This document shows, one piece after another, positions 21,701 through 54,972 of a stretch of DNA of 64,000 nucleotides. Within the stretch, counting starts at the first letter, position 1; each line of letters opens with the position of its first letter. The position numbers and the translations under genes were made by a program. The notes beneath the pieces are model-generated. The model had not been told where the DNA came from, made no database searches, and saw nothing but the letters and a program-made list of their open reading frames with translations. Source of the DNA: Antedon mediterranea (taxonomy: Eukaryota; Echinodermata; Crinoidea; Comatulida; Antedonidae); assembly GCF_964355755.1 (NCBI RefSeq), contig NC_092670.1:28631795-28695794 (forward strand), in the 5' to 3' direction.

Positions 21701-21736
21701 CTCTCTCGCTGATCTGTCTCTCCCTCGCTGATCTAT
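9706..21736. repeat. 12-kb satellite, 17-bp unit CTCTCTCGCTGATCTAT
   Basis: An uninterrupted array of a 17-bp unit and its 15-, 19- and 21-bp variants, which differ mainly in the number of CT steps and CTCTGT for CTCTCT. Rare variants mark long-range duplications: TCTCGAAGATCTATC occurs near 10262, 13570 and 15597, and CTCTGCCTCGCTGATC near 11694, 14999, 17029 and 18806. Blocks of about 3.3, 2.0 and 1.8 kb were therefore copied within the array. Toward the right end CTGATCTGT replaces CTGATCTAT. No genes. Confidence 0.98.
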
Positions 21737-22715: not shown

Positions 22716-23135
22716 CATTTTATGGTGGTATTTTTTTATTTTGGCCATTTAAAACAAAAAATCTCTGTACTTTAGTACAGGGATTTTAAAAGAAGGCACT
22801 TGGTTATGCAATAAAAAATTATGTTAGGATAATAAAAGGTAATAAAAGTACCTATAGCCTTACCTTTCTACAAACAGTCTGTTTTTAACGATCAGGTCAA
22901 TACAGATGAATTAAAAAATTTAAAAAACACCGCGTCCGCGTATAAATAAACGGATGGGTTTATTTATAAAATTAGTGAAAGAGGCTGAATGAAAGTGATT
23001 ACCTAACTGCTGAAAATTCTTCAGTCGTCGCGAGTGCATCTGAAATCAGCATAATTGCACCCAAAAAACAGGTGGCATCGCGATATGCTGATCGGCCGCC
23101 GCTGATTAGCATTGAAAAGTTGCATTATGCGCTCA

Positions 23136-23576
23136 CTCTCGCTGATCTATCTCTCTCTCGCTGATCTATCTCTCTCTCGCTGATCTATCGCTCTCTCGCT
23201 GATCTATCTCTCTCTCGCTGATCAATCTCTCTCTCGCTGATCTATCTCTCTATCGCTGATCAATCTCTCTCTCGCTGATCTATTTCTCTCTCGCTGATCT
23301 ATCTCTCTCTCGATGATCTATCTCTCTCTCGCTGATCTATCTCTCTCGCTGATCTATCTCTCTCTCGCTGATCTATCTCTTTCTCGCTGATCTATCTCTC
23401 TCTCGCTGATCTATCTCTCTCGCTGATCTATCTCTCTCTCGCTGATCTATCTCTCTCTCGCTGATCTATCTCTCTCTCTCGCTGATCTATCTCTCTCTCG
23501 CTGATCTATCTCTCTCTCGCTGATCTATCTCTCTCTCTCGCTGATCTATCTCTCTCTCGCTGATCTATCTCTCTCT
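23136..23576. repeat. 17-bp satellite between copy B and the LINE
   Basis: About 25 units of CTCTCTCGCTGATCTAT. The array is broken at 23577 by the 5' end of the plus-strand LINE and resumes after its 3' tail at 29681. Confidence 0.97.
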
Positions 23577-29680: not shown

Positions 29681-30396
29681 TCTCTCACTGATCTATCGCT
29701 CTCTCGCTGATCTATCTCTCTCTCGCTGATCTATCTCTCTCTCTCGCTGATCTATCTCTCTCTCGCTGATCTATCTCTCTCGCTGATCTATCTCTCTCTC
29801 GCTGATCTATCTCTCTCTCGCTGATCTATCTCTCTCTCTCGCTGATCTATCTCTCTCTCGCTGATCTATCTGTCTCTCGCTGATCTATATCTCTCGCTGA
29901 TCTATCTCTCTCGCTGATCTATCTCTCTCTCGCTGATCTATCTCTCTCGCTGATCTATCTCTCTCTCGCTGATCTACCTCTCTCTCGCTGATCTATCTCT
30001 CTCGCTGATCTATCTCTCTCTCGCTGATCTATCTGTCACTCGCTGATCTATCTCTCTCTCGCTGATCTATATCTCTCTCGCTGATCTATCTCTCTCTCGC
30101 TGATCTATCTCTCTCTCGCTGATCTATCTCTCTCTCGCTGATCTATCTCTCTCTCGCTGATCTATCTCTTTCTCGCTGATCTATCTCTCTCTCGCTGATC
30201 TATCTCTCTCTCGCTGATCTATCTCTCTCTCGCTGATCTATCTCTCTCTCGCTGATCTTTCTCTCTCTCGCTGATCTATATCTCTCTCGCTGATCTATAT
30301 CTCTGTATCTCTGATCTATCTCTCTCTCTCGCTGATCTATCTCTCTCTCTCGCTGATCTATCTCTCTCTCTCGCTGATCTATCTCTCTCTCTCTCG

Positions 30397-30460
<64 letters not shown>

Positions 30461-33400
30461 GCTGATCTATCTCTCTCGCTGATCTATCTCTCTCTCTCGC
30501 TGATCTATCTCTCTCTCTCTCGCTGATCTATCTCTCTCTCGCTGATCTATCTCTCTCTCGCTGATCTATCTCTCTCACTGATCTATATCTCTCTCGCTGT
30601 TCTATCTCTCTCTCGCTGATCTATCTCTCTCTCGCTGATCTATCTCTCTCTCGCTGATCTATCTCTCTCTCGCTGATCTATCTCTTTCTCGCTGATCTAT
30701 CTCTCTCTCGCTGATCTATCTCTCTCTCACTTATCTATCTCTCTCTCGCTGATCTATCTCTGTCTCGCTGATCTATCTCTGTCTCGCTGATCTATCTCTG
30801 TCTCGCTGATCTATCTCTGTCTCGCTGATCTATCTCTCTGTCTCGCAGATCTATCTCTGTCTCGCTGATCTATCTCTCTCTCGCTGATCTATCTCTCTCT
30901 CTCGCTGATCTGTCTCTCTCTCGCTGATCTTTCTCTCTCTCGCTGATCTATCTCTCTCTCTCGCTGATCTGTCTCTGTCTCGCTGATCTGTCTCTGTTTC
31001 GCTGATCTATCTCTCTCTCGCTGATCTGTCTTTCTCTCGCTGGTCTGTCTCTCTCTCGCTGATCTATCTCTCTCTCCCTGATCTATCTCTCTGTCGCTGA
31101 TCTATCTCTCTCTCGCTGATCTTTCTCTCTCTCGCTGATCTGTCTCTCTCTCGCTGATCTTTCTCTCTCTCGATGATCTATCTCTCTCTCGCTGATCTGT
31201 CTCTGTCCCGCTGATCTGTATCTGTCTCGCTGATCTGTCTCTTTCTCGCTGATCTGTCTCTCTCTCGCTGATCTGTCTCTCTCTCGCTGATCTGTCTCTC
31301 TTTCGCTGATCTGTCTTTCTCTCGCTGGTCTGTCTCTCTCTCTCGTTGATCTGTCTCTCTCTCGCAGATCTGTCTCTCCCTCGCTGATCTGTCTCTCTCT
31401 CGCTGATATATATCTCTCTCGCTGATCTATCTCTCTCTCGCTGATCTATCTGTCTCTCTCGCTGATCTTTCTCTCTCTCTCTCTCTCGCTGATCTATCTC
31501 TCTCTCGCTGATCTATCTCTCTCTCGCTGATCAATCTCTGTCTCGCTGATCTATCTCACTCTCGCAGATCTATCTCTGTCTCGCTGATCTATCTCTGTCT
31601 CGCTGATCTATCTCTGTCTCGCTGATCTATCTCTGTCTCGCTGATCTACTATCTCTGTCTCGCTGATCTATCTCTGTCTCGCTGATCTATCTCTCTCTCC
31701 CTGATCTATCTCTCTGTCGCTGATCTATCTCTGTCTCGCTGATCTATCTCTCTCTCGCAGATCTATCTATGTCTCGCTGATCTATCTCTGTCTCACTGAT
31801 CTATCTCTGTCTCGCTGATCTATCTCTGTCTCGCTGATCTATCTCTGTCTCGCTGATCTATCTCTCTCTCCCTGATCTTTCTCTCTCTCGCTGATCTATC
31901 TCTGTCTCGCTGATCTATCTCTCTGTCTCACTGATCTATCTCTGTCTCGCTGATCTATCTCTCTGTCTCGCTGATCTATCTCTATGTCTCGCTGATCTAT
32001 CTCTCTGTCTCGCTGATCTATCTCTGTCTCGCTGATCTATCTCTCTGTCTCACTGATCTATCTCTCTGTCTCGCTGATCTATCTCTCTGTCTCGCTGATC
32101 TATCTATCTCTCGCTGATCTATCTCTCTCTCTCGTTTATCTATCTCTCTCTCGCTGATCTATCTCTCTCGCTGATCTATCTGTTTCTCTCGCTGATCTAT
32201 CTCTCTCTCGCTGATCTATCTCTCTCTCGCTGATCTATCTCTCTCTCTCGCTGATCAATCTCTGTCTCGCTGATCTATCTCTCTCTCTCTCGCTGATCTA
32301 TCTCTCTGTCTCGCTGATCTATCTATCTCTCGCTGATCTATCTCTCTCTCGCTGATCTATCTCTCTCTCGCTGATCTATCTCTCTCTCTCGCTGATCTAT
32401 CTCTTTCTCGCTGATCTATCTCTCTCTCGCTGATCTATCTCTCTCTCGCTGATCTATCTCTCTCTCGCTGATCTATCTCTGTCTCGCTGATCTATCTCTG
32501 TCTCGCTGATCTATCTCTGTCTCGCTGATCTATCTCTGTCTCGCTGATCTATCTCTCTGTCTCGCAGATCTATCTCTGTCTCGCTGATCTATCTCTCTCT
32601 CGCTGATCTATCTCTCTCTCTCGCTGATCTGTCTCTCTCTCGCTGATCTTTCTCTCTCTCGCTGATCTATCTCTCTCTCTCGCTGATCTGTCTCTGTCTC
32701 GCTGATCTGTCTCTGTTTCGCTGATCTATCTCTCTCTCGCTGATCTGTCTTTCTCTCGCTGGTCTGTCTCTCTCTCGCTGATCTATCTCTCTCTCCCTGA
32801 TCTATCTCTCTGTCGCTGATCTATCTCTCTCTCGCTGATCTTTCTCTCTCTCGCTGATCTGTCTCTCTCTCGCTGATCTTTCTCTCTCTCGATGATCTAT
32901 CTCTCTCTCGCTGATCTATCTCTGTCTCGCTGATCTGTATCTGTCTCGCTGATCTGTCTCTTTCTCGCTGATCTGTCTCTCTCTCGCTGATCTGTCTCTC
33001 TCTCGCTGATCTGTCTCTCTTTCGCTGATCTGTCTTTCTCTCGCTGGTCTGTCTCTCTCTCTCGTTGATCTGTCTCTCTCTCGCAGATCTGTCTCTCCCT
33101 CGCTGATCTGTCTCTCTCTCGCTGATATATATCTCTCTCGCTGATCTATCTCTCTCTCGCTGATCTATCTGTCTCTCTCGCTGATCTTTCTCTCTCTCTC
33201 TCTCGCTGATCTATCTCTCTCTCGCTGATCTATCTCTCTCTCGCTGATCAATCTCTGTCTCGCTGATCTATCTCTCTCTCGCAGATCTATCTCTGTCTCG
33301 CTGATCTATCTCTGTCTCGCTGATCTATCTCTGTCTCGCTGATCTATCTCTGTCTCGCTGATCTACTATCTCTGTCTCGCTGATCTATCTCTGTCTCGCT

Positions 33401-34847
33401 GATCTATCTCTCTCTCCCTGATCTATCTCTCTGTCGCTGATCTATCTCTGTCTCGCTGATCTATCTCTCTCTCGCAGATCTATCTCTGTCTCGCTGATCT
33501 ATCTCTGTCTCACTGATCTATCTCTGTCTCGCTGATCTATCTCTGTCTCGCTGATCTATCTCTGTCTCGCTGATCTATCTCTCTCTCCCTGATCTATCTC
33601 TCTCTCGCTGATCTATCTCTGTCTCGCTGATCTATCTCTCTGTCTCACTGATCTATCTCTGTCTCGCTGATCTATCTCTCTGTCTCGCTGATCTATCTCT
33701 ATGTCTCGCTGATCTATCTCTCTGTCTCGCTGATCTATCTCTGTCTCGCTGATCTATCTCTCTGTCTCACTGATCTATCTCTCTGTCTCGCTGATCTATC
33801 TCTCTGTCTCGCTGATCTATCTATCTCTCGCTGATCTATCTCTCTCTCTCGTTTATCTATCTCTCTCTCGCTGATCTATCTCTCTCGCTGATCTATCTGT
33901 TTCTCTCGCTGATCTATCTCTCTCTCTCGCTGATCTATCTCTCTCTCGCTGATCTATCTCTTTCTCGCTGATCAATCTCTGTCTCGCTGATCTATCTCTC
34001 TGTCTCGCTGATCTATCTCTCTGTCTCGCTGATCTATCTATCTCTCGCTGATCTATCTCTGTCTCGCTGTACTATCTCTGTCTCGCTGATCTATCTCTGT
34101 CTCACTGATCTATCTCTGTCTCGCTGATCTATCTCTCTCTCCCTGATCTATCTCTCTCTCGCTGATCTATCTCTCTCTCCCTGATCTATCTCTCTGTCGC
34201 TGATCTATCTCTCTCTCGCTGATCTTTCTCTCTCTCGCTGATCTGTCTCTCTCTCGCTGATCTTTCTCTCTCTCGCTGATCTATCTCTCTCTCGCTGATC
34301 TGTCTCTGTCTCGCTGATCTTTCTCTGTTTCGCAGATCTATCTCTGTCTCGCTGATCTGTATCTGTCTCGCTGATCTGTCTCTTTCTCGCTGATCTGTCT
34401 CTCTCTCGCTGATCTGTCTCTCTCTCGCTGATCTGTCTCTCTCTCGCTGATCTGTCTATCTCTCGCTGGTCTGTCTCTCTCTCGCTGATCTCTCTCTTTC
34501 TCGCTGATCTATCTCTCTCGCTGATCTATCTCTCTCTCACAGATCTATCTCTCTCTCGCTGATCTGTCTCTCTCTCTCGCTGATCTATCTCTCTCTCGCT
34601 GATCTATCTCTCTCTCACTGATCTATCTCTCTCTCGCTGATCTATCTCTCTCTCGCTGATCTATCTCTCTCTTGCTGATCTATCTCTCTCTCGCTGATCT
34701 ATCTCTCTTTCGCTGATCTATCTTTCTCTCTCTCGCTGATCTATCTCTCTCTCGCTGATCTATCTCTCTCTCGCTGATCTATCTCTCTCTCTCTGGCTGA
34801 TCTATCTCTCTCTCTCTCGTTGATCTATCTCTCTGTCGCTGATCTAT
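29681..34847. repeat. 17-bp satellite, second large array
   Basis: Same unit as 9706-21736. A block of about 1.72 kb is duplicated: GATCTACTATCTCTGTC occurs near 31645 and 33362, and the TCTCGCAGATC block near 30841 and 32561. The array ends where the 3' tail of the minus-strand LINE begins. No genes. Confidence 0.98.
30399..30457. repeat. (TA)n microsatellite in the satellite
   Basis: An uninterrupted run of about 29 TA steps inside otherwise CT-rich satellite, with normal units on both sides. It probably arose by slippage from a TATCTAT variant. Confidence 0.97.
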
Positions 34848-35009
34848 AATAATAATAATAATAACAGGATTTTTATAGCGCACATACCACTCAAGAGTGC
34901 TCAAGGCGCATTAAAAAAAAATAAAAACAAATCATACAAATGCCTGACAAATAAAATGCAATTTCTTTGGAGGGTCCCCATCCGTTCTCGTTCTGTCGCG
35001 GTCCCGGAC
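34848..35009 (-). mobile_element. LINE copy 2: 3' terminal fragment
   Basis: On the minus strand this reads from GTCCGGGAC through TTGAGCACTCTTGAG and GCGCTATAAAAATCCTG to (TTA)n, matching 29517-29680. It is separated from the LINE body by the 7.5-kb element. Confidence 0.93.
35001..35009. repeat. 9-bp target-site duplication, left
   Basis: GTCCCGGAC here and at 42557-42565 flanks the 7.5-kb transposon. LINE copy 1 has this site once (as GGTCCGGGACCC). The duplication could be called 7-9 bp because the termini share bases with the flanks. Confidence 0.85.
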
Positions 35010-35860
35010 GCGATTTTTTTTTTCGTACATAAGTTGGGGACCCCCTCATGAAACGTCACAAAATAAACATGAATAATTCATCAGTTAAATTTTCTTGTTC
35101 CATGTGCACCCAAGCGTATAGCAACAAGAAGTGACAGTTTACACAAGTGTGGTACGATTCTAGGCCTATCTCCGCTGTGGTTGCCGCGTGCGATTTCATA
35201 ATACTAATAGAATAGCGGCGTTTTGTGTGGATTGTCGAAATAATCAGCCTTTAGTTTGGTGTTTTTAATATAATTTATTACTAAAGAATTACGTGTTAAA
35301 ATTATAGTTTCTATTGATACTATTAGCCTAATTACTAGTCTCTAAACCCATGTCTATTCTAGTAGTAGCTGTGTTGGTGTGTGTGACGTGTGTGTTAGTT
35401 AGGTATGACACAGTCCGAGTAATAGGCCTAAGTCAGCAAAATTAAACAATAAACATTACACAAAAATACATTTTTTATTCTCGTGGGTCTAATCCCATCT
35501 CATGTGTTCATATACGTGCATTTTTAAAGTTTCTTTGAGTACATGCATATTGTTTGATAATAAAATAGCAGAATAAAAAAATTACAGTACACACATTATA
35601 CACATTCTTTATTCTTGTGGGTCTAAGCTTTCTTTGGGCTATGTCCAATTACTACTTAGTTTAATGTCTTGTCTAGCTGTCGATTAGCCTCCACACATTT
35701 GCATAGTAGTGGACTAGGCCTTACGGTGAAGATGAAAACATTTTTTCTTGTTCCTCATTAAGCATAATAAGTGAACTCTCTTGATTCATATACATAAAAA
35801 TAAATTAATCACGTATTAAAAAGTTCCACGAAAATTTTCCTGACATTTTAAAGAAATCTT
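35010..35860 (+). repeat. Left long terminal inverted repeat
   Basis: The first 140 bases match 42556-42417 inverted almost perfectly. Pairing resumes at TACGATTCTAGGCCTA (near 35152), at AGGCCTTACGGTGAAG (near 35717) through GTTCCTCATTAAGCATAATA, and at AAAAAGTTCCAC (near 35820), each with a partner in 38375-38617. About 450 bases (35190-35710) have no partner. Confidence 0.75.
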
Positions 35861-35983
35861 GATTTTAAAAGTATAAAAGAATATATTTTCGCAGTTGCCA
35901 TTTTGTATCACATGACATCAGTTAAACCAATCATACGCGACGTTTAGGCAGCAGACGTCAAAATCACACGATGTAAACACGAA

Positions 35984-36269
35984 ATGGCGTCCGACGAGGA
36001 AGGATCTTCTCGCTCAGACAAAGTAAAGTTGAAATGTTTTTTACAAATTTACAAGCATTCAAATGAAATTATCAGTCCAATTACTGAGATTCGATGGAAT
36101 AAAGTGTTGCTCTGTTCAAAGAGTTGGATAAAATTAGATGGAGACGGCAAGGAAATCGCCATACATTTGACGGAGCTTCTTGTTTGACGATGTCGTACAC
36201 GAGCATCCAGGCTTAGGTTTTCATGCTACCTGTTACAGGCGATATACTGATACATCTCGACTAAAAAAG
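35984..36269 (+). pseudogene. Exon 1 of the cargo gene
   Basis: ATG at 35984 follows CACACGATGTAAACACGAA. The frame runs 67 codons to TGA at 36185-36187. In the +1 frame the sequence continues as DDVVHEHPGLGFHATCYRRY to LKK and donor AAG|GTAATA. A one-base change at CTTGTTTGAC would join them. Confidence 0.65.
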
Positions 36270-36719
36270 GTAATATTTGGTTTCGATTATTATCAGAATA
36301 CTCTAAGAGTTAATAATATAGTTAAATGATACAGTATATAGGGTGCTACTGATCTATATATCTATAGATAGGCCTAGATCTATATTGTGCCCTTATTTAG
36401 AGTTTCTGTGCTTGGTTGTTGATTGGGCTTTCTACTACTGTAGTACCAGTACTACTACGTAGGCCTAGGCCCTAGGCCATATTATTTTATACAGTATATA
36501 TTATTCAGTAGGCTACACAATTAATTTTAGTTAAATACCAATATAGGCTCTATATTCTGGAAAGTGAGTAAAACGTAACTTTCTAAAACTCTTGTTGGTT
36601 TTTTGAATTTACATTTTTAATTTTTTTTTTATTTGCTTCAGTCTAAATGTTGAATTTTTAAACACAAAAATCTATAAAAAAATAAAATATATTTTAATAA
36701 TATTTATTATTATTTACAG

Positions 36720-36890
36720 GGAATTGGAAAGTGTTTTTTTAACATATAAGCAAAGCTATAAGGTATTTTGCAGAGATGTAATTGATAAACGGTTACAGTA
36801 TGGACAGGAGATACCAAGACTCGCAAAACTCCAAAAGCTTTTCATGAAATCAATTGAAAAAACAGAAAATGTTTACTTGTCAACTATAAG
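36720..36890 (+). pseudogene. Exon 2 of the cargo gene
   Basis: Acceptor TTATTTACAG and donor ATAAG|GTAGGC bound 171 bases. The open frame reads ELESVFLTYKQSYKVFCRDV then IDKRLQYGQEIPRLAKLQKL. This needs two bases from exon 1, which ends in phase 0. Removing one T from the seven-T run restores the join through GIGKCFLTYK. Confidence 0.65.
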
Positions 36891-37018
36891 GTAGGCTGTC
36901 GATCCCTTCTTAAAAACGATGAAATAATTGTAATATTTTTGAGATCCAGTTACTGTAATAATTTCTTCATTGTATCTGTGTTACAATTAATTATAATCAA
37001 TTAATGTGTTATTTATAG

Positions 37019-37106
37019 ATCAGACGTGTTGAAGAAGAAGCTCAGGATGGATTATCCTAACCTAATTTTTCATTCACCCACAAGTTGCTTAGTGTGTTTA
37101 TATTAA
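37019..37106 (+). pseudogene. Exon 3 of the cargo gene
   Basis: After acceptor ATTTATAG the exon completes an Arg codon and reads SDVLKKKLRMDYPNLIFHSP followed by TSCLVCLY and TAA. The expected continuation RNESVLVYF is in exon 4, so the true exon should end near FHSP. The only GT there (ACAA|GTTGCT) is weak and one base out of phase. Confidence 0.55.
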
Positions 37107-37192
37107 ATGATTATTTCACCAGGGATAATTTAAAAAAAAATCTTTTTGTGGATTGGTCAAACTAAATATTTTGTTTATTTTTTCTTAATTAG

Positions 37193-37389
37193 AAATGAAT
37201 CAGTTCTGGTGTACTTTAGCAATGTATCCCCTGGATTTGTGGCTGATCCATTTTTGTCATCAGGAAAAAGTACAACGGAGACAGATGAATCATCAGAGTA
37301 TGACATACATATTCCAACTACTTCTACAACACACGAAATCTCCACTGATGGTGACAATAGAGACAAACTAAGGACTCTATATTTTGCAG
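37193..37389 (+). CDS. Exon 4 of the cargo gene
   Basis: Acceptor TTTCTTAATTAG and donor GCAG|GTACGG bound 197 bases reading NESVLVYFSNVSPGFVADPF and a Ser/Thr/Asp-rich linker (SSEYDIHIPTTSTTHEISTD), ending in phase 1. It fits exon 5, which begins with the two bases that make Gly. Confidence 0.65.
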
Positions 37390-37633
37390 GTACGGTTAAA
37401 ATACAATAACTTGTATATATTGGTTTATTTTTAAATAACAACAATAAATGTTATTGCATAATTAAGGAAATGCTGTGGATCAAAGAGGTGAAAGCTGTAT
37501 GCACTCAAAAAACAAAACTGTTATGATAGTAAGTGGTGTCGATCATAAATGCTGTACACAATACAGTATATGCTTTATATAAATTTATTATTACTATGTT
37601 TCATTCATCGAATGCTATAAAATATACTTGCAG

Positions 37634-38046
37634 GTACGATAGTAAATAATGCCATCAAATCAAACAAAGGTATGCAGAGTGAATGGCCTCCAAGAGCAGC
37701 AGACATTAATGATGTTGACATATCTGAAATTGTGCCATATGAGTTGTTTAATCTAATCGCAAAGTGTGTTGGTGCTGCAGAAGATACTATACAAACCTCA
37801 TTTTCAGATGTTACTGAAGAAACTCGAACGAAAATTTTATCGATATATGCCAGGAAATCCTGTACCTTGAAAAATATTAAACATGAGAATAAATACAATT
37901 ACATTGAAACAAAACAAATATTTGATGTTTGTATTTTATTTAATAATTTAAATTTACTATTGCATTGGTGTTTATTACTAGGAATATGTGTTCTATATGT
38001 TTCACAGTTAAATCATATCAGTCACTATGTACATCCTACGGTATAA
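37634..38046 (+). CDS. Exon 5 of the cargo gene, C-terminus replaced
   Basis: Acceptor ATATACTTGCAG leads into GTIVNNAIKSNKGMQSEWPP, RAADINDVDISEIVPYELFN and LIAKCVGAAEDTIQ, then RTKILSIYARKSCTL. The remaining hydrophobic tail to TAA at 38046 is probably read-through, since family members continue with a different conserved block. Confidence 0.65.
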
Positions 38047-38374
38047 ACTTAGCATTATTGCTGCTGTATTTCCTGTCGGGAGAAACCATTATACGAACAG
38101 TTGAAGCCATTTGTAATTATAAATGTTTTAATGTCGGGGGATAATTATTAACTCTAAATTTCAATTTTAGAGTTAATATAAATTTGTATTCACCAAATTT
38201 ATTTAAAAAAATAAAGAATAAATCTATTTTGATAATAAATAACTTGCCTATATATTTCTTATAAACCGTGATAATAATAGTACAGTCTAGTTATAGTGCG
38301 CCACCAGTTGTTTCAGCCTCGCTATTTCGTAAGAAATCGTTGGAATATTTACCAACTTTAACGGTAATTCTCTA
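38047..38374. other. 3' flank of the cargo gene
   Basis: AT-rich. It holds a perfect 9-bp inverted repeat, AACTCTAAA/TTTAGAGTT around six bases (38149-38173), and several AATAAA words (for example near 38209) that could serve polyadenylation. No coding signal. Confidence 0.5.
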
Positions 38375-38739
38375 CCAAACGCCAGGTATTTTTTTGTGGA
38401 ACTTTTACTTTTTGTACTATTAGTATTTATTTAGAACAGTATATGTGGTAAAAAAGTATTATGCTTGATGAGGAACGGGATTGCTTTTCCAGGCATCATT
38501 TCAGCTTCGCCGTAAGGCCTAGACGTGTGTGTGAAAAAGAGTGTGCGAAGGCGAGGCAATTACGTGAATTGACCTAGAATCCTAGGCCTATTGTAGAAAG
38601 AATCGTATCGCAGTTTAGTCCAGTCCCTAAGGGGAAATGATGTTACCATAGTGGATACAAGTGTGCCCTTTGGCATGTTGATAGAACATGATATGGAGAT
38701 ACCAAAACAAAGTTACTGGAAATCTGATTTGACCTCTGT

Positions 38740-39190
38740 GACCTCTGACCTCAATTTTTATATTTCTATCTTAAACAGCCATATCTCCGCAACGGGTTTG
38801 ACAATTGAAATGATATTGGTGTCAAATAGATCAGAGGGTACATATTTATATTCGCTCTAATAGAACTTTTTTCAAAAAAACGACCGGAAATGTAATTTCT
38901 CAATGTTTTGACCTTTGACCTCGGCTTACTATATCTCAATAACTACTGGTCAAAATTTCTTGAAATTTGTTTCAAATTGTTAAGAGCATACATATTTATA
39001 TATACTCTAATTAAACATGTTCTTCCAAATCCACAGGAAATGTCATTTACTGACCTTTGACCTTTAATGTTTAAATATGTCTGTATCTCTGTAACCAAAT
39101 GTCATAAAAAGTTCAACTTGTTGTCAAAATGTTCAAAATGTAAACATTTATATTAGCTCTAATAGAAGATGTTATCATATTTTTACTGGA
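38740..39190. repeat. Sub-terminal repeats with TGACCTTTGACCT motifs, left
   Basis: Three diverged units of about 150 bp, each with TGACC(T)nTGACC, a TATCTC(C/A) step and (C/T)TCTAAT(A/T)(G/A)AAC. The partner set at 41815-42330 is inverted. The paired AGGTCA-type half sites one base apart resemble DR1 nuclear-receptor elements, by sequence only. Confidence 0.8.
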
Positions 39191-39717
39191 AATGCCAGTT
39201 TGAGGTATGACCAGGATATACTGTTAAGCGTGCGTGTTTCATACTTATAATAATATACCTAAAATATAGATTTAATGGACCAGAACTACATTCAATATCC
39301 TATTTAGCCTTTTACAATTTTCTTAAAACTTAATGTTTAATTTAATTTCAATATATAATTCCATCGCATGGTAGGCCTACACCGTAAGAGCAACACTTAA
39401 TATCAACAAAAAATTTGATAAACTTAAAAGTTAAATAACATTTTAAAAAAAGAAAGAAAATCAGGATCTTAAAGAAAGAAAAGAAGAATTAACCAATACG
39501 ATTTGATACTCATAAAACATATGACCTAATTATCAATTAATTGCTTGAAGTATGCTGAAAAAATAAAATGTTTGAAACAGTGAGGAAAAAGCGAAGAAAA
39601 GAAAAACATATGTTTAAAATATTAGAAATCTGAAAAGGATCAAAGACAAATTAATTACAAAGTTGATTTCTTTTCAAGAACATACTGTAGTGGAATATAA
39701 AAGGAAAACAAACCAGT

Positions 39718-40020
39718 GAGCAGTCAAAATTACCATCTTGGCTTGATGAGGCAATAACACATCCAGCTCATAACACTATACAACAAAATCTTTGAAACCA
39801 GAAGAAATTAAGAGAAGCAATAATAATTATACTTTAATCCACAAAAACATGACAAAACTGACATCAACCATTACCGACCAAACGAACATTATAACATGTA
39901 CACAAAAATTTACAAAAGTAATCAAAAACCAAAATCAGAGACCGACTAGAAGTAAATAAACCAATATATAAGGCTTTATACAGTAGGACCATCTTATACA
40001 GTTTGTCAATCAACTAAAAT
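39718..40020 (+). pseudogene. RTE-like reverse transcriptase remnant, part 1
   Basis: Degenerate reading recalls the RT region ITLYNKI ... KTDINHYRP, where RTE elements have KGDxxDxxNYRPI, followed by MYTKIYKS. Several stops and indels are present. The remnant is interrupted at 40021 by a MITE and continues after 40854. Assignment is by motif order only. Confidence 0.5.
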
Positions 40021-40854
40021 AACAAGGCCAACAGCCATTAAGTCGCGTGCTACAATGCATAGTGATACCGGACCGACAGACAGACCGACAGACCGACAGA
40101 CAGACCGACAGACCGACAGACAGAGAGAGAGACCGACCGACCGACATAGTGAACTATACTGACCGAAATTACTGAACATGTTTAAAAATATTGAAATGTT
40201 TAAAAACATTTATTTTTTTTAAATTTACACGTGCGTAGCCTGTCACTTTCGACGTGCTCGTATAACGTAATTTCGAGTTGAAAAGTAAGTCAAGAAAACA
40301 GAAATCGGGAAAAAAAAAAGCGCAATAACATTTAACGCGCAGTGCGCGCGCAAAAATATGCGCACTCATGGCAATTTTGTAAACGCTTAAAATTGCCTGA
40401 AATGTACTCTTATTTCATCGAAAATAAATTTTGAAAATGTTAAGCGCGCGTACGCATGCGTTACATGCGCTACGCACGTAATTGTATTGCCATATGATGA
40501 TTTATGCCCTGAAATTTATGAGTACCAAATTTTATTTAATTGTGATTCATGGTTGTGAAGATATGATTACAAACGTGATTTCGTTAAATCGTGCGTAGAC
40601 CGCGTAATTTTTTATAGCGCACCGTGAAAACATAACCACATTGATTCCTGGCCATAAGGAATATACTGTGAAAAATTGACCTAGCTAGATTAAACTGATA
40701 TCAAGATAAGGTCAGAAAGCGATAAAACGCATAGTGATACCGGACCGACAGACAGACAGACAGACAGACCGACAGACAGACCGACAGACAGACAGACAGA
40801 CAGACCGACCGACCGACATAGTGAACTATAGAGTCGCTTCCACGCGACTAAAAA
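40021..40854 (-). mobile_element. MITE with (GGTC)n direct terminal repeats
   Basis: On the minus strand it starts TTTTAGTCGCGTGGAAGCGA and ends CACGCGACTTAATGGCTGTT. Both ends carry a direct repeat of about 100 bp (ATAGTTCACTATGTCGGTCGG ... CCGGTATCACTATGC) around a CpG-rich core with GCGCGCGTAC-type words. It splits the RTE remnant. Relatives are at 59098-59826, 61597-61930 and 63893-64000. Confidence 0.85.
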
Positions 40855-41090
40855 GGAAATGAATATCACCAAATCTTTGATTTAGAGATTATTAGAGAAA
40901 GAGAAAGCATTTGACTCAATAAAACAGGCATTACCATATATTAGAGGGAAATATTATACCTCAACAAATATTGATTACGATCGTTCAAAGAGAAGTTAAG
41001 AAAGATTAGTAAGACAAGGCAACACTTAAGATCTTCACTGCATTTGAAGAGGTGTTTAATCAAAGAGCTAATCTAAAAAATAGAGTAAAT
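40855..41090 (+). pseudogene. RTE-like reverse transcriptase remnant, part 2
   Basis: It reads as a decayed EKAFDSI box (near 40900) and, near 41012, VRQGNT..., recalling the RTE pattern VRQGDTISPKLFTAxLEEVF. The two parts flank the MITE, so they were one fragment. Confidence 0.5.
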
Positions 41091-41489
41091 ATCACTTTAA
41101 AGACAAAATAAACAGTTAATTTAACCAAAATCACATTGACTTCCAGCCTATTTTTTGCTTTGAATTACAGTTTTTTTGGGTATGCACTATATCATGTTTT
41201 TTCAATCCAATTTTTGGTGAAACTATTATGTGTGACATTAAAATTGCATATTCAACAAAAATATTTGTCAAAATTACTTTTGTCAGGGGGAAAATAAGTA
41301 TATCTTTAATAGCATGTGATATTATTAGCAAATATTTCAAACGTAGTTTTAAAACTTTCCCATTACAAACAATTGCCATAATTCTGATAACATTACAATA
41401 CACCCATCCTCTGGGACTTATTTTCAAATGTAGCTAAAAACTTTCCAGTACAATTCCGGCCATTTTGATGTGTATAGATGCATGCAGTA
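41091..41489. other. Unassigned interior of the nested element
   Basis: AT-rich sequence open on both strands for 70-98 codons but with no recognisable motif. I treat these frames as chance. Confidence 0.4.
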
Positions 41490-41765
41490 GCATTGGAAAA
41501 GCGAGAGAGGGGGAGGTGGTTGGGGTGATGGAGAGACACATATTTTTTACATGTTTGTCTACACTATAAACTAGTTTAACAAAAAAGGTGTGATGTGCCC
41601 AAATATGGTAGTGATATGTCATTCATCGTGTCCATATATGGGCACATCACATTTTTTTGTCGCATAAAAATGTTATAGTGTAGACAGAGTTTAAGATTTG
41701 TGTAACATGTAACAAAAATATGTGTCTCTCCATCCACCCCAACCCCCTCTCTCGATCTCTTTTTA
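41490..41765. repeat. Fold-back element, arms about 120 bp
   Basis: GAGAGACACATATTTTTTAC, TGTCTACACTATAA and TGTGATGTGCCCAAATATGG on the left are matched inverted on the right by CCATATATGGGCACATCACA, TTATAGTGTAGACA and AAATATGTGTCTCTCCATC. The loop is only about 25 bases, so this is a near-complete hairpin typical of a fold-back MITE. Confidence 0.88.
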
Positions 41766-41814
41766 TAGATTATTAATTGCTAAATATATGCAAAACGATG
41801 GGTCATAGCTCAAA

Positions 41815-42416
41815 ATGACATTTCCAATTGAATTCTGACAAAATATTTTGTTAGAGCAAATATAAATGTGTATATTCTAAACAATTTGACACCAAACTGA
41901 ACTTTTTAGGACAAATAGTTACCGAGATATTGACATATTCAAACATTAGAGGTCAAGGGTCAAAAAAGCTTAATTTATGGTAATTTTTTGAAAAAAGTTT
42001 CTATTAGACTAAATATTAGATTTATTTTCTTAACATTTTGAGCCCATTCTCAAATCTCTGAGATTGCGTGTTATTGAGATATTAGGCAATCAAGGTCAAA
42101 GGTCAAACTGAAAAATAAAGCCTTTGCGGCCATTTTTGTACAATTTTTTTCATTATAGCGAATATAAATATATATCTTCCAAGCATTTTGAAAAAAAAAT
42201 AAATGTAAAATGTCCATGCGTTGTCAAGATATGGCGATTTTTAGTTATATAATAGAAAAATATAAAAATTGAGGTCAGAGGTCACAGAGGTCAAATCAGA
42301 TTTCCAGTAACTTTGTTTTGGCATCTCCACACTATACTCTACCAAACTGCTATACTGAAAAATTTGTATCCAGTCTGGTAACATCCCACCCCTTTTTCTC
42401 CCCTTAGGGACTGGAC
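41815..42416. repeat. Right TIR and sub-terminal repeats of the nested element
   Basis: Inverted counterpart of 38618-39190. It keeps GGTCAAAGGTCA-like pairs near 42095 and GGTCAGAGGTCACAGAGGTCA near 42272, and ends CCCCTTAGGGACTGGAC. Confidence 0.8.
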
Positions 42417-42556
42417 TAGTTGTGTAAATCACTTCTTGTTGCTATACGCTTGGGTGCACACGGAACAACAAATTTAACTTAACTGATGAATTATTCATGT
42501 TTATTTTGTGACGTTTCATGAGGGGTCCCCAACTTATGTACGAAAAAAAAAATCGC
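42417..42556 (-). repeat. Right long terminal inverted repeat, outer part
   Basis: Inverted match to 35010-35150, ending AAATCGC before the right 9-bp target duplication (42557-42565). The inner part of this repeat was pushed to 38375-38617 by the nested element. Confidence 0.88.
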
Positions 42557-42708
42557 GTCCCGGACCCCTACCTAGGTGACCAAACAAAGGAACAGGATAC
42601 ACATTTGCCTTGCCACAGACGACCGGGTGCTCAGAGACAACAACCAAGACAGAGGCACCCCAAAGATAATGCTGGTCAGGAAAAAGTATGCTATAAAATT
42701 CTAGAACT

Positions 42709-45673
42709 TTAAGAAACCTCGTGATTTCCATATGCCTTAATGAATAAATGTGTTTTTAATAATTTTTTAAAAGTATCAAGAGTTTTGCAAAATCTTATAG
42801 AGCTCGGTAGAGCATTCCATAGACGAGGAGCAGTAACGGTGAAATCTCTGTCTCCCCATGAGTGGTGAGACTTAGGTTGATGTAGAAGCAGCGTATCACT
42901 AGAACGCAGATTCCGTCTGGGAACATACAGCCTAAGCATGTCAGAAATATATTCAGGAGCCATGCCATTAATAGACTTAAAAACAATGCGGTACCTAACA
43001 GGAAGCCAATGCAAAGTTTCCAAGGTATTTGATATGTGTGCATAGTTTTTTAACAACTCGTGCCGCTGTATTTTGAATCAGCTGAAGCCTGTGGAGTTGT
43101 TTTTGTGGGAGACCAAATAACAAGGAGTTACACATATCGAGACGCGAACTAACAAATGCATGTACAAGTTGCTCAGCAGCTGCACGATTTAAGTATTTTC
43201 TGATGCCTCGAATATTTCTTAAATGATATGACGATGCAGACGTAATTTTAGAAATATGAGCCGTCATTGTCATATTAGAATCCAGAATTACAAGATTTCT
43301 AACTTGTGTAGTATTTTTAGTACAAAAGTTACCAATGGAAACCCTCCTAGATGGAATTTTCTCTAATTGTTGTTGAGAACCAAATAGAATGTACTCAGTC
43401 TTATAATCATTAAATTTCAAAACGTTTTTGGCCATCCAGACACGAATTTCAGAGATACATTTTTCAAGCAAATCAATTGATAATTCACTCTGTGTCATGT
43501 TAGGTTTAAACGATATATATATATGAGTGTCATCAGCGTAAACATGATAGCTAAGATTATATTTCTTAATGATATCACGAATAGGATATACATAAATTGT
43601 AAACAATTGTGGACCTAACACAGATCCTTGCGGAACAGAGTAATTTAAAGTGGTAGGTTGAGAGATTACCTCTCTAATACAAATGTGTTGAGGTCTGTCC
43701 TCCAACTATGATTGACACCATCTTAGTGCACATCCCTCAACACCAATAGAAGCATGCAACCTCTCAGTCAGAATACTATGATCTACCGTATCAAACGCAG
43801 CACTCAAATCAAGTAAAATTAAAGCAGTTACTTTTCCAACATCCATCGCATGAAGTATATCATTGCTAACGCGCAGCAGTGCAGTTTCAGTACTGTGATG
43901 TACTTTATACGCTGATTGAAACGGGTCAAGTAAAGAATTATCCTTTACATGTGATAGTATACGTTTAGATACCACTTTTTCCATTACTTTTCCAAGAAAA
44001 CACAGATTTGATACTGGTCTGTAATTGGATAGCTTTTCAGGATCAAGACCCGATTTCTTTAATTGAGGACGTATGTGCGAGATTTTACAAATATCTGGGA
44101 AAACCCCAGTTTCCAAAGACAGATTAACGACACGTGTAATTAGTGGAACAAAAACAACAGCATTTCTCTTAATTAACAGAGTAGGAACTGGATCAAAACT
44201 GCAAGATTTAGCAGGCGAGTTTTTGACAATTTCAAAAATTTCTTTTTCACTTGCAGGTTCAAATTTACAAAGGGAGGGACAATTATAATTTTCACAGCAT
44301 ACGTCGTTATTAAAGTAATGAGACAAACTTCCAGCACTATCTTTAACAAGAAGTTTACGAATATTAACAATTTTATTTTTTTTAAATACGTAAAATCTTT
44401 CTGCAAGCAATTCATCTGAGTGAGAAAATGGAAGCACAGACGATTTAGAACAGTGTAAAAGATTGTTTACAACTTTAAACAGCTTCTTCTGATCACCTGA
44501 GCAATCTTCGACCAGATCAGAATAATATTGTTTCTTAGCACTTTCAACAAGCATATTAACAATACACCACTGATGACAATATTTCTGTCTATCTAATGTA
44601 TTTTCTGATTTCATCCATTTTCTCTCAAATACGCGACGGAGTATTCTCGCAGATCTAATTTCATCATTATACCACGGTTTTGAAGAATTTAGTTTGATAC
44701 ATTTTGTTTTTAAAGGTGCGTGTTGATCCATAACTTCTCTTAAAGAGCAGTATCTTTCAATATTTTCTTGCAAAGTACCATCATGCATATCAGACAACCG
44801 AGCTTGTATGTCATTTGAAAATATTGTTGTATCAATACTGTTTATATTTCGGATTTTAATTTTAGATTTAGGAAGAGGTGGTTTCTTGAAGTCGAGACTA
44901 CAAAGTATAGAAAAATTATCAGAGATACCCGGTTTTACAGTGATCCCCGAGATCAGAGAAACATCTCTAGTAATAATGAGATCATGACAATGACCACCAT
45001 CATGCGTAGGTTCATTTACATGCTGTATAAAATTGAAAGACTGCAATAGACGATTAAATTTATTTGCAGCGATATTCTCATTTTCATCAATGTGGATATT
45101 AAAATCACCACAAAAAAATTACTTCTGATGGAATAATGAGATAATCAAAAATCATATTTTCAAATTCATTAAGAAAGTCGGTGAACTCGGTGGTCTATAG
45201 ATGCATACAATATAAATTGTTTTTGAACTTAATGTAAACTGTAAATGTATTGATTCAAATGAAGAATAAACATTTACATCATTTTTCATATTAACACTTA
45301 GACTAGATTTAAATAAAATTCCAACCCCTCCACCAATTTTATCCAATCTAGGAACATGTTTGAAACAATATCCAAGTGGAGTTATGTTTCCAATGGAGAG
45401 GTTGTCATCAGGTCGAATCCATGTTTCAGACACAGACACGATATCAATGTCATTACTAACAACAAAGTCTGTGAATTCATCACTTTTGTTACGCAATGAA
45501 CGAGCATTTAGCAAACAAAATATAAATGACGAATTTGCAGAATTTGAATTTAATTTTTGTATGTAGGTTTTCGTGGATTTATCAGCTGTCGTACAAGTTC
45601 CAGGTACTTGAACCACTCTTTTCTTTCTTTTCTTGCATCGATTTTTATAGTCCCTTGTTGATGATTGACGCAT
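42709..45673 (-). pseudogene. LINE copy 2: endonuclease-reverse transcriptase ORF2
   Basis: ATG at 45673 overlaps the end of ORF1 by about 124 bases in another frame. The endonuclease has LNARSLRNK, SETWIRPDD, GGVGILF and the SDNFSI block; RT has YRPVSNL, AAFDTVDH, SVPQGSVLG and YADDTHIYI. Breaks are a frameshift near 45170 (after YRPPS), a Tyr-to-TAG change near 43706 (CATAC in copy 1) and small indels near 43290 and 43020. Otherwise it agrees closely with copy 1, so both copies can be used to infer the ancestral reading without large gaps. Confidence 0.9.
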
Positions 45674-51483: not shown

Positions 51484-51735
51484 AGATTGCATTAACCAAA
51501 TTTCTTCGATTTATCTCTCTCTCGCTGATCTATCTCTCTCTCGCTGATCTATCTCTCTCTCGCTGATCTATCTCTCTCTGGCTGATCTATCTCTCTCTCG
51601 CTGATCTATCTCTCTCTCGCTGATCTGTGTCTCTCTCGCTGATCTGTCTCTCTCTCGCTGATCTGTCTCTCTCTCGCTGATCTGTCTCTCTCTGGCTTAT
51701 CTGTCTCTCTCTCGCTGATCTGTCTCTCTCTCGCT

Positions 51736-51773
<38 letters not shown>

Positions 51774-52124
51774 ATCCGTCTCTCTTTCGCTGATCTGTCT
51801 ATCTCTCGCTGATCTGTCTCTCTCTCGCTGATCTGTCTCTCTCGCTGATCTGTCTCTCTCTCGATGATCTGTCTTTCTCTCGCTGATCTGTCTCTCTCTC
51901 GCTGATCTGTCTCTCTCTCTCGCTGATCTGTCTCTCTCTCTCTCTCGCTGATCTGTCTCTCTCTCGCTGATCTGTCTCTCTCTCGCTGATCTGTCTCTCT
52001 CTCTCGCTGATCTGTCTCTCCCTCGCTGATCTGTCTCTCTCTCTCTCTCGCTGATCTGTCTCTCTCTCGCTGATCTGTGTCTCTCTCGCTGATCTGTGTC
52101 TCTCTCGCTAATCTGTGTCTCTCT
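51484..52124. repeat. 17-bp satellite, mostly CTGATCTGT variant
   Basis: About 36 units, first CTGATCTAT and then CTGATCTGT. A long Arg/Glu/Ser-rich frame on the minus strand is purely repeat-derived. The array passes directly into the 88-bp satellite. Confidence 0.97.
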
Positions 52125-53833
52125 GGTCTAAAACGTCCCCAAACGCGATTTGAAGCTATTCTAAGCACTTTGGTGTTTTTATGTTAACAAGTTTTTTCGA
52201 AAATCACAAAATGGTTTAAAACGTCTCGAAATGCGATTTGAAGCTATTCTAAGCACTTTGGTGTGTTTATGTTAACAAGTTTTTTCGAAAATCACAAAAT
52301 GGTCTAAAACGTCCCCAAATGCGATTTGAAGCTATTCTGTGCACTTTGCAGTTTTGTGTGAAAATTTTTTGTCGAAATGCTCAAAATGATCAAAAACGTT
52401 TTTAAATACGATATTAAGCTATTTTGTGCTCTTTGATGTTTTTGTGTGAAAAGTTTTATCGAAATGCTCAAAATGGTCTAAAACGGTTTCTAATGTGATT
52501 TTAAGCACTTTGATGTTTTTATGTTAACAAGTTTTTTCGAAAATCACAAAATGGTCTAAAACGTATCAAAATGAGATTTGAAGCTATTCTAAGCACTTTG
52601 GTGTTTTTATGTTAACAAGTTTTTTCGAAAATCACAAAATGGTCTAAAATGTCTCCAAATGCGATTTGAAGCTATTTTAATTAAGCACTTTGGTGTTTTT
52701 GTGTAATCAAGTTTTTTCGAAAATCACAAAATTGTCTAAAACGTCTCCAAATGCGATTTGAAGCTATTCTTAGCACTTTCGTGTTTTTATGTTAACAAGT
52801 TTTTTTGAAAATCACAAAATGGTCTAAAACGTCTCCAAATGCGATTTTAAGCTATTCTAAACACTTTGGTGTTTTTATGTTAACAAGTTTTTGCGAAAAT
52901 CAAAAAATGGTCTAAAACGTCTCCAAATGCGATTTGATGCTATTCTAAATACTTTGGTGTTTTTATGTTAACAATTTTTTTCGAAAATCACAAAATGGTC
53001 TAAAACGTCTCCAAATGCGATTTGAAGCTATTTTAAGCACTTTGGTATTTTTGTGTAACCAAGTTTTTTCGACAATCACAAAATGGTCTAAAACGTCTCC
53101 AAATGCGATTTGAAGCTATTCTAAGCACTTTGGTGTTTTTATGTTAACAAGTTTTTTCAAAAATCACAAAATGGTCTAAAACGTCTCCAAATGCGATTTG
53201 AAGCTATTCTGTACACTTTGATGTTTTTATGTTAACAACTTTTTTAGAAAATCACAAAATGGTCTAAAACGTCTCCAAATGCGATTTGATGCTATTCTAA
53301 ATACTTTGGTGTTTTTATGTTAACAAGTTTTTTCGAAAATCACAAAATGGTCTAAAACGTCTCCAAATGCGATTTGAAGCTATTTTAAGCACTTTGGTAT
53401 TTTTGTGTAACCAAGTTTTTTCGACAATCACAAAATGGTCTAAAACGTCTCCAAATGCGATTTGAAGCTATTCTAAGCACTTTGGTGTTTTTATGTTAAC
53501 AAGTTTTTTCAAAAATCACAAAATGGTCTAAAACGTCTCCAAATGCGATTTGAAGCTATTCTGTACACTTTGATGTTTTTATGTTAACAACTTTTTTAGA
53601 AAATCACAAAATGGTCTAAAACGTCTCCAAATGCGATTTGATGCTATTCTAAATACTTTGGTGTTTTTATGTTAACAAGTTTTTTCGAAAATCACAAAAT
53701 GGTCTAAAACGTCTCCAAATGCGATTTGAAGCTATTTTAAGCACTTTGGTATTTTTGTGTAACCAAGTTTTTTCGACAATCACAAAAGGGTCTAAAATGT
53801 CTCAAAATGCGATTTGAAGCTATTCTAAGCACT
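52125..53833. repeat. 88-bp satellite with 352-bp higher-order repeat
   Basis: About 19 units of roughly 88 bp: GGTCTAAAACGTCTCCAAAT, GCGATTTGAAGCTATTCT, AAGCACTTTGGTGTTTTTAT, GTTAACAAGTTTTTTCGAAA, ATCACAAAAT. From about 52930 four-unit blocks repeat exactly every 352 bp. The diagnostic GATTTGATGC is at 52931, 53283 and 53635, and AACTTTTTTAGA at 53237 and 53589. The array sits between the 17-bp satellite and its inverted form. Confidence 0.96.
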
Positions 53834-54888
<1,055 letters not shown>

Positions 54889-54972
54889 GAGATGGAGAGA
54901 TGGAGAGATGGAGAGATGGAGAGATGGAGAGATGGAGAGATGGAGAGATGGAGAGATGGAGAGATGGAGAGC
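54889..54972. repeat. 8-bp minisatellite GATGGAGA
   Basis: About ten copies of GATGGAGA close the GA-rich block. The sequence then changes abruptly to unique DNA at GCTAACGCC. Confidence 0.95.

Follow-up and report, generated by a model that had tools for sequence, protein, structure and literature searches.

A nest of three transposons in Antedon mediterranea places a WPP-type gene, most likely a transposase gene, in a TAG-ended element

Results

A nest of three transposons

We conclude, with near certainty, that the 7.5-kb unit at 35001-42565 of the window (the whole stretch of 64,000 nucleotides of Antedon mediterranea contig NC_092670.1 that was analysed) is a nest of three transposons, in which two elements, B and C, have each inserted into a third, A. 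We also consider it very probable that this nest is to be read together with two further points, namely that the WPP-type protein encoded within it represents the transposase of the family to which B belongs and that the longer relatives of that protein fit Academ (AcademX). The features of the nest are as follows.

35001-35009, no strand: left target duplication of A, GTCCCGGAC (from the sequence)
35010-35714, + strand: left part of A, with the TIR, GCGATTTTTTTTTTCGTACATAAG..., of about 140 bp, then internal sequence (from comparison with other A copies)
35715-38521, + strand: B, 2807 bp, ends TAGGCCTTACGG...CCGTAAGGCCTA (from its own ends and target duplication)
35984-36272, + strand: first WPP coding piece (first L054 coding piece as tblastn query, E 3e-12)
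36725-36894, + strand: second WPP coding piece, present in the window copy
37014-37079, + strand: third WPP coding piece (a weak match, E 0.005)
37195-37391, + strand: fourth WPP coding piece
37630-37873, + strand: fifth WPP piece, MQSEWPPRAADINDV...
38522-38615, + strand: middle part of A, which starts with the right GAC of B and ends with the left GTT of C
38616-42418, + strand: C, 3803 bp, without a recognisable gene, ends TAGTCCAGTCCC...GGGACTGGACTA (from empty sites and many copies)
42419-42556, + strand: right part of A and its right TIR, the first three bases being the right GTT of C
42557-42565, no strand: right target duplication of A (from the sequence)

The host element A

The original prediction that inverted ends and a 9-bp duplication enclose 35010-42556 was borne out: the ends at 35010 and 42556 are inverted relative to one another (92% identity over 151 aligned columns) and the 9-bp duplication of GTCCCGGAC at 35001-35009 and 42557-42565 is exact. 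The TIRs had been put at 380-850 bp, whereas in the window copy they are only about 140 bp long; in L011, a 1.2-kb copy, they reach about 390 bp. The 21-base tip of A has 1005 exact matches in the genome and its reversed pattern has none, so these tips are beyond chance. Among the first 100 tips listed of the 1005 there are 37 facing pairs, with a median length of 929 bp, and the window copy without B and C is 931 bp. The 9-bp duplications, which are centred on CCNGG, are exact in 15 A copies that represent 14 events, as the window copy and L009 share one insertion; this count leaves out the one-ended or imperfect-duplication copies L004, L006, L012, L016 and L019, and also L011, in which a T run differs, though its 9-bp duplication was seen. 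A is a nonautonomous element of a many-copied family with 9-bp duplications, and we saw no transposase-like frame by eye in its long copies L002+L051, L003+L052 and L068.

B and C have ends, target duplications and empty sites of their own

In other A copies, the equivalent of 35010-35707 is joined to that of 38522-38615 and then to that of 42418-42556, and the left stretch of A in the window continues elsewhere (e.g., L002, L008) straight into the sequence from 38522 onward. B, whose terminal form is TAGGCC...GGCCTA, has duplicated 3 bp of its target, GAC, which flank it at 35712-35714 and 38522-38524, and the A copy L002 has its empty site, AGTGGAC/GTGTG. C has the terminal form TAGTCC...GGACTA and lies between two copies of GTT, its 3-bp target duplication (38613-38615 and 42419-42421), with an empty site, GCAGTT/GTGTA, in five A loci (L005, L007, L008, L009 and L010); over 184 bp there is no difference among 32 of the 40 copies of C that were scored, counting that of the window. 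In the order of events that we propose, A (931 bp, nonautonomous, with long TIRs) inserted first and produced the 9-bp duplication, and B and C, both with TAG...CTA ends, inserted later inside A, each with a 3-bp duplication.

Both ends could be defined in nine B copies, eight of which have matching 3-bp flanks, L027 being the one that does not. Four B copies in four places, L022-L025, show no difference from one another over 3483 bp. Internal A sequence adjoins one other B locus, L044.

Did the WPP gene belong to A, either as its own protein or as a captured gene, as had been proposed? That the gene lies between TIRs flanked by a 9-bp duplication is what speaks for a single long-TIR transposon encoding its own WPP protein, yet B, in which the gene resides, is present in none of the 15 other complete A copies (12 of one set, together with L002+L051, L003+L052 and L068), and an A tip was found in none of the 29 other B loci (L022-L050) within the 1.5 kb examined beyond the match. 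These 29 loci correspond to 27 places, since L047/L048 and L043/L050 are pairs, and one of the places is that of L053. The part of the original prediction that posited a TIR-flanked family with 9-bp duplications stands, with 1005 tips and 15 copies, and the part that made the WPP gene its cargo does not. With B having its own ends as well as an empty site, we regard the own-protein explanation as having almost no chance of being correct; it is ruled out by the empty sites and by the copies of B that have other sequence on either side.

Capture of a host gene by A, in the manner of Pack-MULEs, has in its favour that nonautonomous elements with long TIRs and 9-bp duplications resemble MULEs and that MULE-domain matches do exist in the genome (36, with all 97 candidates scored). 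The three such matches on C1 are all more than 10 kb away from any A tip, judged against the 100 of the 1005 tips listed. Against capture, the unit that holds the gene is bounded by transposon ends and a 3-bp duplication and recurs in identical form at several sites, and its relatives are multi-copy and within transposons rather than a single-copy host gene. The probability that we attach to capture is negligible, and for the window copy it is ruled out by the boundaries of B. The WPP gene is neither A's own gene nor one captured from the host, but belongs to a nested element, B, that has TIRs, a 3-bp duplication and an empty site of its own.

The WPP gene in the window is a broken remnant

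The five exon-like WPP pieces that had been noted were recovered by tblastn, with matches at 35984-36160, 36183-36272, 36745-36885, 37014-37079 and 37630-37845, in addition to an open piece near 37195-37391. Their placement differs from the one first given, in which the gene started just inside the left TIR and ended just before the right one: the pieces begin about 1 kb inside A and end about 4.5 kb short of the right TIR. Pfam searches with single window pieces gave no match, nor did a protein search of phage records. The frame of the first piece is broken relative to copy L024, and the window copy of B is without about 0.63 kb, at 37869-37873, that other B copies have.

B is a deletion derivative that has kept the N-terminal coding pieces and both ends and has lost the transposase core, which none of the fully read B copies has. 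The frame of the WPP gene in L024 stops shortly past the fifth piece; the core residues that come next, GRRQTPKSLALGLTVRV, are in another frame and are followed by a stop. The sole B relative that we found with core pieces is L053, which has about 3.8 kb of extra sequence, encoding them, at the point where the core is lost in L024; its frames are broken and its left end was absent from 4 kb of additional sequence. None of the copies of B that we found is intact and autonomous. The WPP protein most likely represents the transposase of B, now broken in the window copy, and B would, most likely, be mobilised in trans by full-length relatives.

Longer relatives and their protein domains

Longer WPP-type proteins reside in elements of 6.9-7.7 kb with TAG...CTA ends and 3-bp duplications. 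Two of these, L054 and L056 (7742 bp, ends TAGGCCATCGGG), are 99.97% identical over 7747 aligned bases, are located on two contigs and have the duplications ACA and CCA. L055, in which the reading is interrupted, has ends TAGGCCATCAGC and a TTG duplication, the context of L062 has ends TAGGCTATGGGGCA and a TAG duplication, and L061, which lies within an A copy, has ends TAGTCTGGGAG and an AAA duplication; no matching 3-bp flanks were found for L060. The tally of 3-bp duplications covers the B copies, L054, L056, L055, the L062 context, L061 and L060.

DUF6589 was detected above the cut-off in L054 (E 1e-6) and gave no match in L055, L062 or L063; we found no mention of this domain in the literature searched. 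Among the six proteins D174, D177, D339 and D578 (L054 numbering) are invariant, and a putative RNase H-like DDE/D domain of the family of B would carry out cutting and pasting. The six relatives also share a region in which eight invariant acidic residues occur in FEN-like order in all six segments, a pattern that is weak by score. A profile of this region had five matches in the PDB at E values up to 10, all of them to exonuclease 1; the lowest E was 0.0085, but no single stretch did better than an E of about 1. Its pairwise profile comparison with human FEN1 gave an E of 0.072 and a probability of 0.8%. When the six segments were scanned against Pfam up to E 10, no XPG family was returned; the five families that were returned each matched a single segment, the best (E 0.0027) being an unrelated restriction-enzyme domain. 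The L054 protein alone had no match to solved structures, and the whole six-protein alignment had eight up to E 10, five to ABCA1 (best E 0.45) and three to exonuclease 1 (E 0.71-0.74). The order of the acidic residues suggests that these transposases probably carry a FEN/XPG-like nuclease region, and XPG is the nuclease type of Academ elements.

Discussion

What might be the consequence of spreading elements that retain only the N-terminal part of a transposase gene? In P elements the KP product acts as a repressor and, by analogy, a truncated WPP protein could be made from B-type derivatives and repress the full transposase. Recently amplified derivatives, such as L024, do keep open N-terminal coding pieces. 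However, a comparison of L024 with L034, each of which represents one of the derivative subfamilies, gave about 6 nonsynonymous differences in about 685 sites and about 2 synonymous differences in about 188 sites, which is no sign of constraint, and the first piece of the window copy is broken. We therefore think repression very unlikely. A broader proposal, which we put forward as a long shot, is that all WPP proteins belong to a single group of transposases, whose hallmarks are a FEN-type flap nuclease and elements with TAG...CTA ends and 3-bp duplications, and that its spreading core-deleted derivatives may encode a restraining N-terminal DNA-binding fragment.

What appeared to be a new type of transposon is removed by our analysis. 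In its place, WPP proteins, which have so far been without an assigned function, would gain an identity, at least in the genome of A. mediterranea, as transposases of TAG-ended elements with 3-bp duplications, and any gene catalogue that lists them among the host genes of unknown function would in fact be tallying transposons. Activity is directly testable because near-identical long copies, L054 and L056, exist on two contigs.

How do these elements compare with known systems? A resembles MULEs and Pack-MULEs in its 9-bp duplication, its long TIRs and its many nonautonomous copies, but it differs from them in that the A copies read yielded no transposase and in that its duplications are centred on CCNGG; unlike in a Pack-MULE, the apparently captured gene is a later insertion. 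AcademX elements have TSDs of 3 or 4 bp and AcademH elements TSDs of 9 or 10 bp, with a nuclease and a helicase encoded by the two (PMC10045372). A shares the duplication length of AcademH as given there, but differs from that lineage, which has a helicase-encoding transposase, in that no coding capacity was seen in A. For the longer relatives of B, the name Academ is given because of the duplication length and the nuclease pattern, the latter weak by score, and these relatives appear to fit AcademX by description. That basis leaves some room for a TAG-ended superfamily with 3-bp duplications other than Academ; we consider this unlikely, as both the duplication length and the nuclease pattern agree with the sole description that we found (PMC10045372). 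The B of the window differs from AcademX in that it is core-deleted, so that any movement of it would have to be in trans, whereas its family shares with AcademX the 3-bp duplications and a large protein with a putative nuclease-like region, here in elements of 6.9-7.7 kb.

A nest of three elements

The interval from 35010 to 42556 (window coordinates) consists of three nested elements, each belonging to a general kind already known.

35010 to 42556: element A, the outer element; inverted ends at both limits, perfect 9-bp duplication GTCCCGGAC
35715 to 38521: element B, inside A; start TAGGCCTTACGG, terminus CCGTAAGGCCTA, GAC duplicated; WPP-type coding pieces at 35984-37873
38616 to 42418: element C, inside A; ends TAGTCC...GGACTA, GTT duplicated

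The original prediction had envisaged a possible single transposon with long TIRs, a 9-bp duplication and a split gene of the WPP type as sole cargo. Its ends and duplication held, but not its TIR length, as the inverted match in the window copy covers about 140 bp (92% over 151 aligned columns). Nor does the gene start just inside the left TIR and stop just before the right one, its coding pieces really lying about 1 kb from A's left end and about 4.5 kb short of its right end.

Across the genome (354 Mb, 18 contigs), the exact 21-base tip of A occurs 1005 times (513 + 492) and the reversed pattern not at all; among the first 100 of these tips there were 37 facing pairs less than 20 kb apart, spanning a median of 929 bp. 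The window copy is 931 bp long once B, C and their 3-bp duplications are subtracted, and other A copies run from window 35010-35707 to 38522-38615 and then 42418-42556. None of the 15 other complete A copies (12 with both ends, plus the loci L002 with L051, L003 with L052, and L068) contains the sequence of window 35720-38520, which argues against the WPP gene being cargo of this TIR family.

When the duplications of 15 A copies, representing 14 events and including that of the window (35001-35009 and 42557-42565), were tallied, position 4 was C and positions 6 and 7 were G in all 15, and position 3 was C in 11. They are centred on CCNGG, a strict target for an element with a 9-bp duplication. 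The flanks of A (34846-35000 and 42566-43306) are themselves repeats, with a diverged copy at locus L009 on another contig. There the identical A insertion and duplication occur in the diverged flank copy with neither B nor C, so that A is older than both.

The nest directly adjoins one array of a 19-bp satellite (CTCTCTCTCGCTGATCTAT), which forms large arrays at 9708-21736, 23132-23576, 29681-34847, 51514-52124 and about 53835-54964 and has a marked strand asymmetry (GC skew about -0.46 in the longest array).

The WPP unit as a separate transposon

A genome search with 35760-38520 gave at least 86 matches (the best 40 of 67 candidates scored). Copies with an end in view stop at or a few bases from 35715 and 38521, their flanks vary, and eight of the nine with both ends have matching 3-bp flanks, L027 being the exception; the A copy at L002 retains the intact unoccupied site. 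The tip of A was found in none of the 29 other B loci, each reaching 1.5 kb past the match, and at one locus, L044, internal A sequence adjoins B's right end, so this copy too lies within an A element. The WPP unit is a transposon of its own, separate from A. Four B copies (L022-L025) are identical across 3483 bp at four sites with differing duplications, and they match the window copy at 99.25%, which points to recent movement of B. A further copy (L043/L050, contig C1:28468604-28472642, about 195 kb from the window) is, judging its flanks by eye, apparently inserted in an 88-bp satellite unit matching window 52124-53833.

B is a deletion derivative. In L024, a full-size B copy, the WPP frame stops shortly past the fifth piece, the core residues that come next (GRRQTPKSLALGLTVRV) lie in a different frame followed by a stop, and an acidic stretch comes after. 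The related locus L053 matches L024 at 86-94% identity over the stretches of DNA that align; at L024's junction it carries about 3.8 kb extra, which codes for core pieces in broken frames. The window copy lacks about 0.63 kb at 37869-37873, and L034, from a second derivative subfamily (L033-L046), has two more N-terminal coding pieces than the window type.

The empty site of C is visible in five other A loci. With 184 bases of its left end as query, 32 of 40 scored copies (the best 40 of 169 candidates, window included) were 100% identical and the other eight 99% identical. Its inverted arms of about 600 bp are 72% identical and contain internal direct repeats; no WPP-type match was found in it, and its open frames are short. 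C represents a very recent burst of an element that, by WPP match and open-frame reading, has no recognisable gene. Neither B nor C yielded a transposase core. Part of C, 0.7 kb long (40131-40859, including GACA-type repeats), recurs inverted at 59097-59794 with 91% identity.

Longer relatives and their domains

When the fifth WPP piece served as a protein query, scoring of all 71 candidates left 40 matches: 27 were the window and B relatives, one was L053 and 12 were more distant. Searching with the protein of one longer relative, L054, gave at least 45 matches (the best 37 of 1186 candidates scored); several of them contain open frames that run to 1247-1555 aa. Ends were read in L054, L055, L056, L060, L061 and the L062 context. 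L054 and L056 are a 7742-bp element on two contigs (99.97% identity, 7747 aligned bases), with ends TAGGCCATCGGG and duplications ACA and CCA. L055, a 1147-aa frame with a later interruption in reading, has ends TAGGCCATCAGC and duplication TTG; in the L062 context the 14-base ends TAGGCTATGGGGCA are perfect and the duplication is TAG; L061 has ends TAGTCTGGGAG and duplication AAA. The 3-bp flanks of L060, a near relative of L061, do not match. From the paired ends and duplications, WPP-type proteins lie repeatedly in TAG...CTA elements with 3-bp duplications. L061 is within an A copy: when its two flanks are put together by eye, they read as A sequence, including sequence near window 35640. 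Several TAG-ended elements lie inside A copies, among them B twice (window, and L044 on contig C1), C and the L061 lineage (contig C11).

In Pfam, DUF6589 cleared its cut-off in a single protein, L054 (E 1e-6); it fell short of it in L060, L064 and one L053 piece, and was not found in L055, L062 or L063. TCR/CXC cleared its cut-off in the C-terminal piece of L055 and fell short in L054 and L064. D174, D177, D339 and D578 (L054 numbering) are invariant in an alignment of six proteins and suggest a putative RNase H-like catalytic domain. Around L054 807-1060, eight acidic positions are invariant across the six proteins, their order being D, D, E-E-x-D, D-x-D, D; in five proteins a K-G-K-like motif comes next. 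The catalytic carboxylates of human FEN1 occur in the same order. A PDB search with the profile of this region (E up to 10) matched five sequences, all exonuclease 1, the best (E 0.0085) at the K-G-K-like motif, where a pairwise FEN1 comparison also aligned (E 0.072, probability 0.8%). A Pfam scan of the six nuclease-region segments, with E up to 10, gave five families, each matching a single segment, with Cap4 nuclease at E 0.0081 and poxvirus G5 at E 0.025 among them, and no XPG family. The pattern supports a putative nuclease region in the longer proteins, an assignment that these scores leave weak.

Proposed history and comparison with Academ

What, then, is the WPP protein? The original prediction offered A's own protein or a captured gene; instead, in this genome it clearly behaves like a protein belonging to a transposon group of its own, most likely the transposase. 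A inserted first, and B and C entered it afterwards. We infer that full-length proteins of the B/C kind would recognise TAG-type ends in trans and excise the elements, which would then be joined to a target whose two strands are cut 3 bp apart.

Excerpts of PMC10799480 and PMC12730594 hold nothing pertinent to the WPP protein. An excerpt of PMC10294476 describes Academ transposons as well represented among bivalves and as long (mean 5565 bp in its curated library), and one of PMC10045372 gives duplications of 3 or 4 bp for AcademX and 9 or 10 for AcademH, tying these lengths to the encoded helicase and nuclease. A resembles MULE or AcademH in duplication length only. B and its relatives, compared with AcademX by description only, agree with it in duplication length and, less firmly, in the nuclease pattern.
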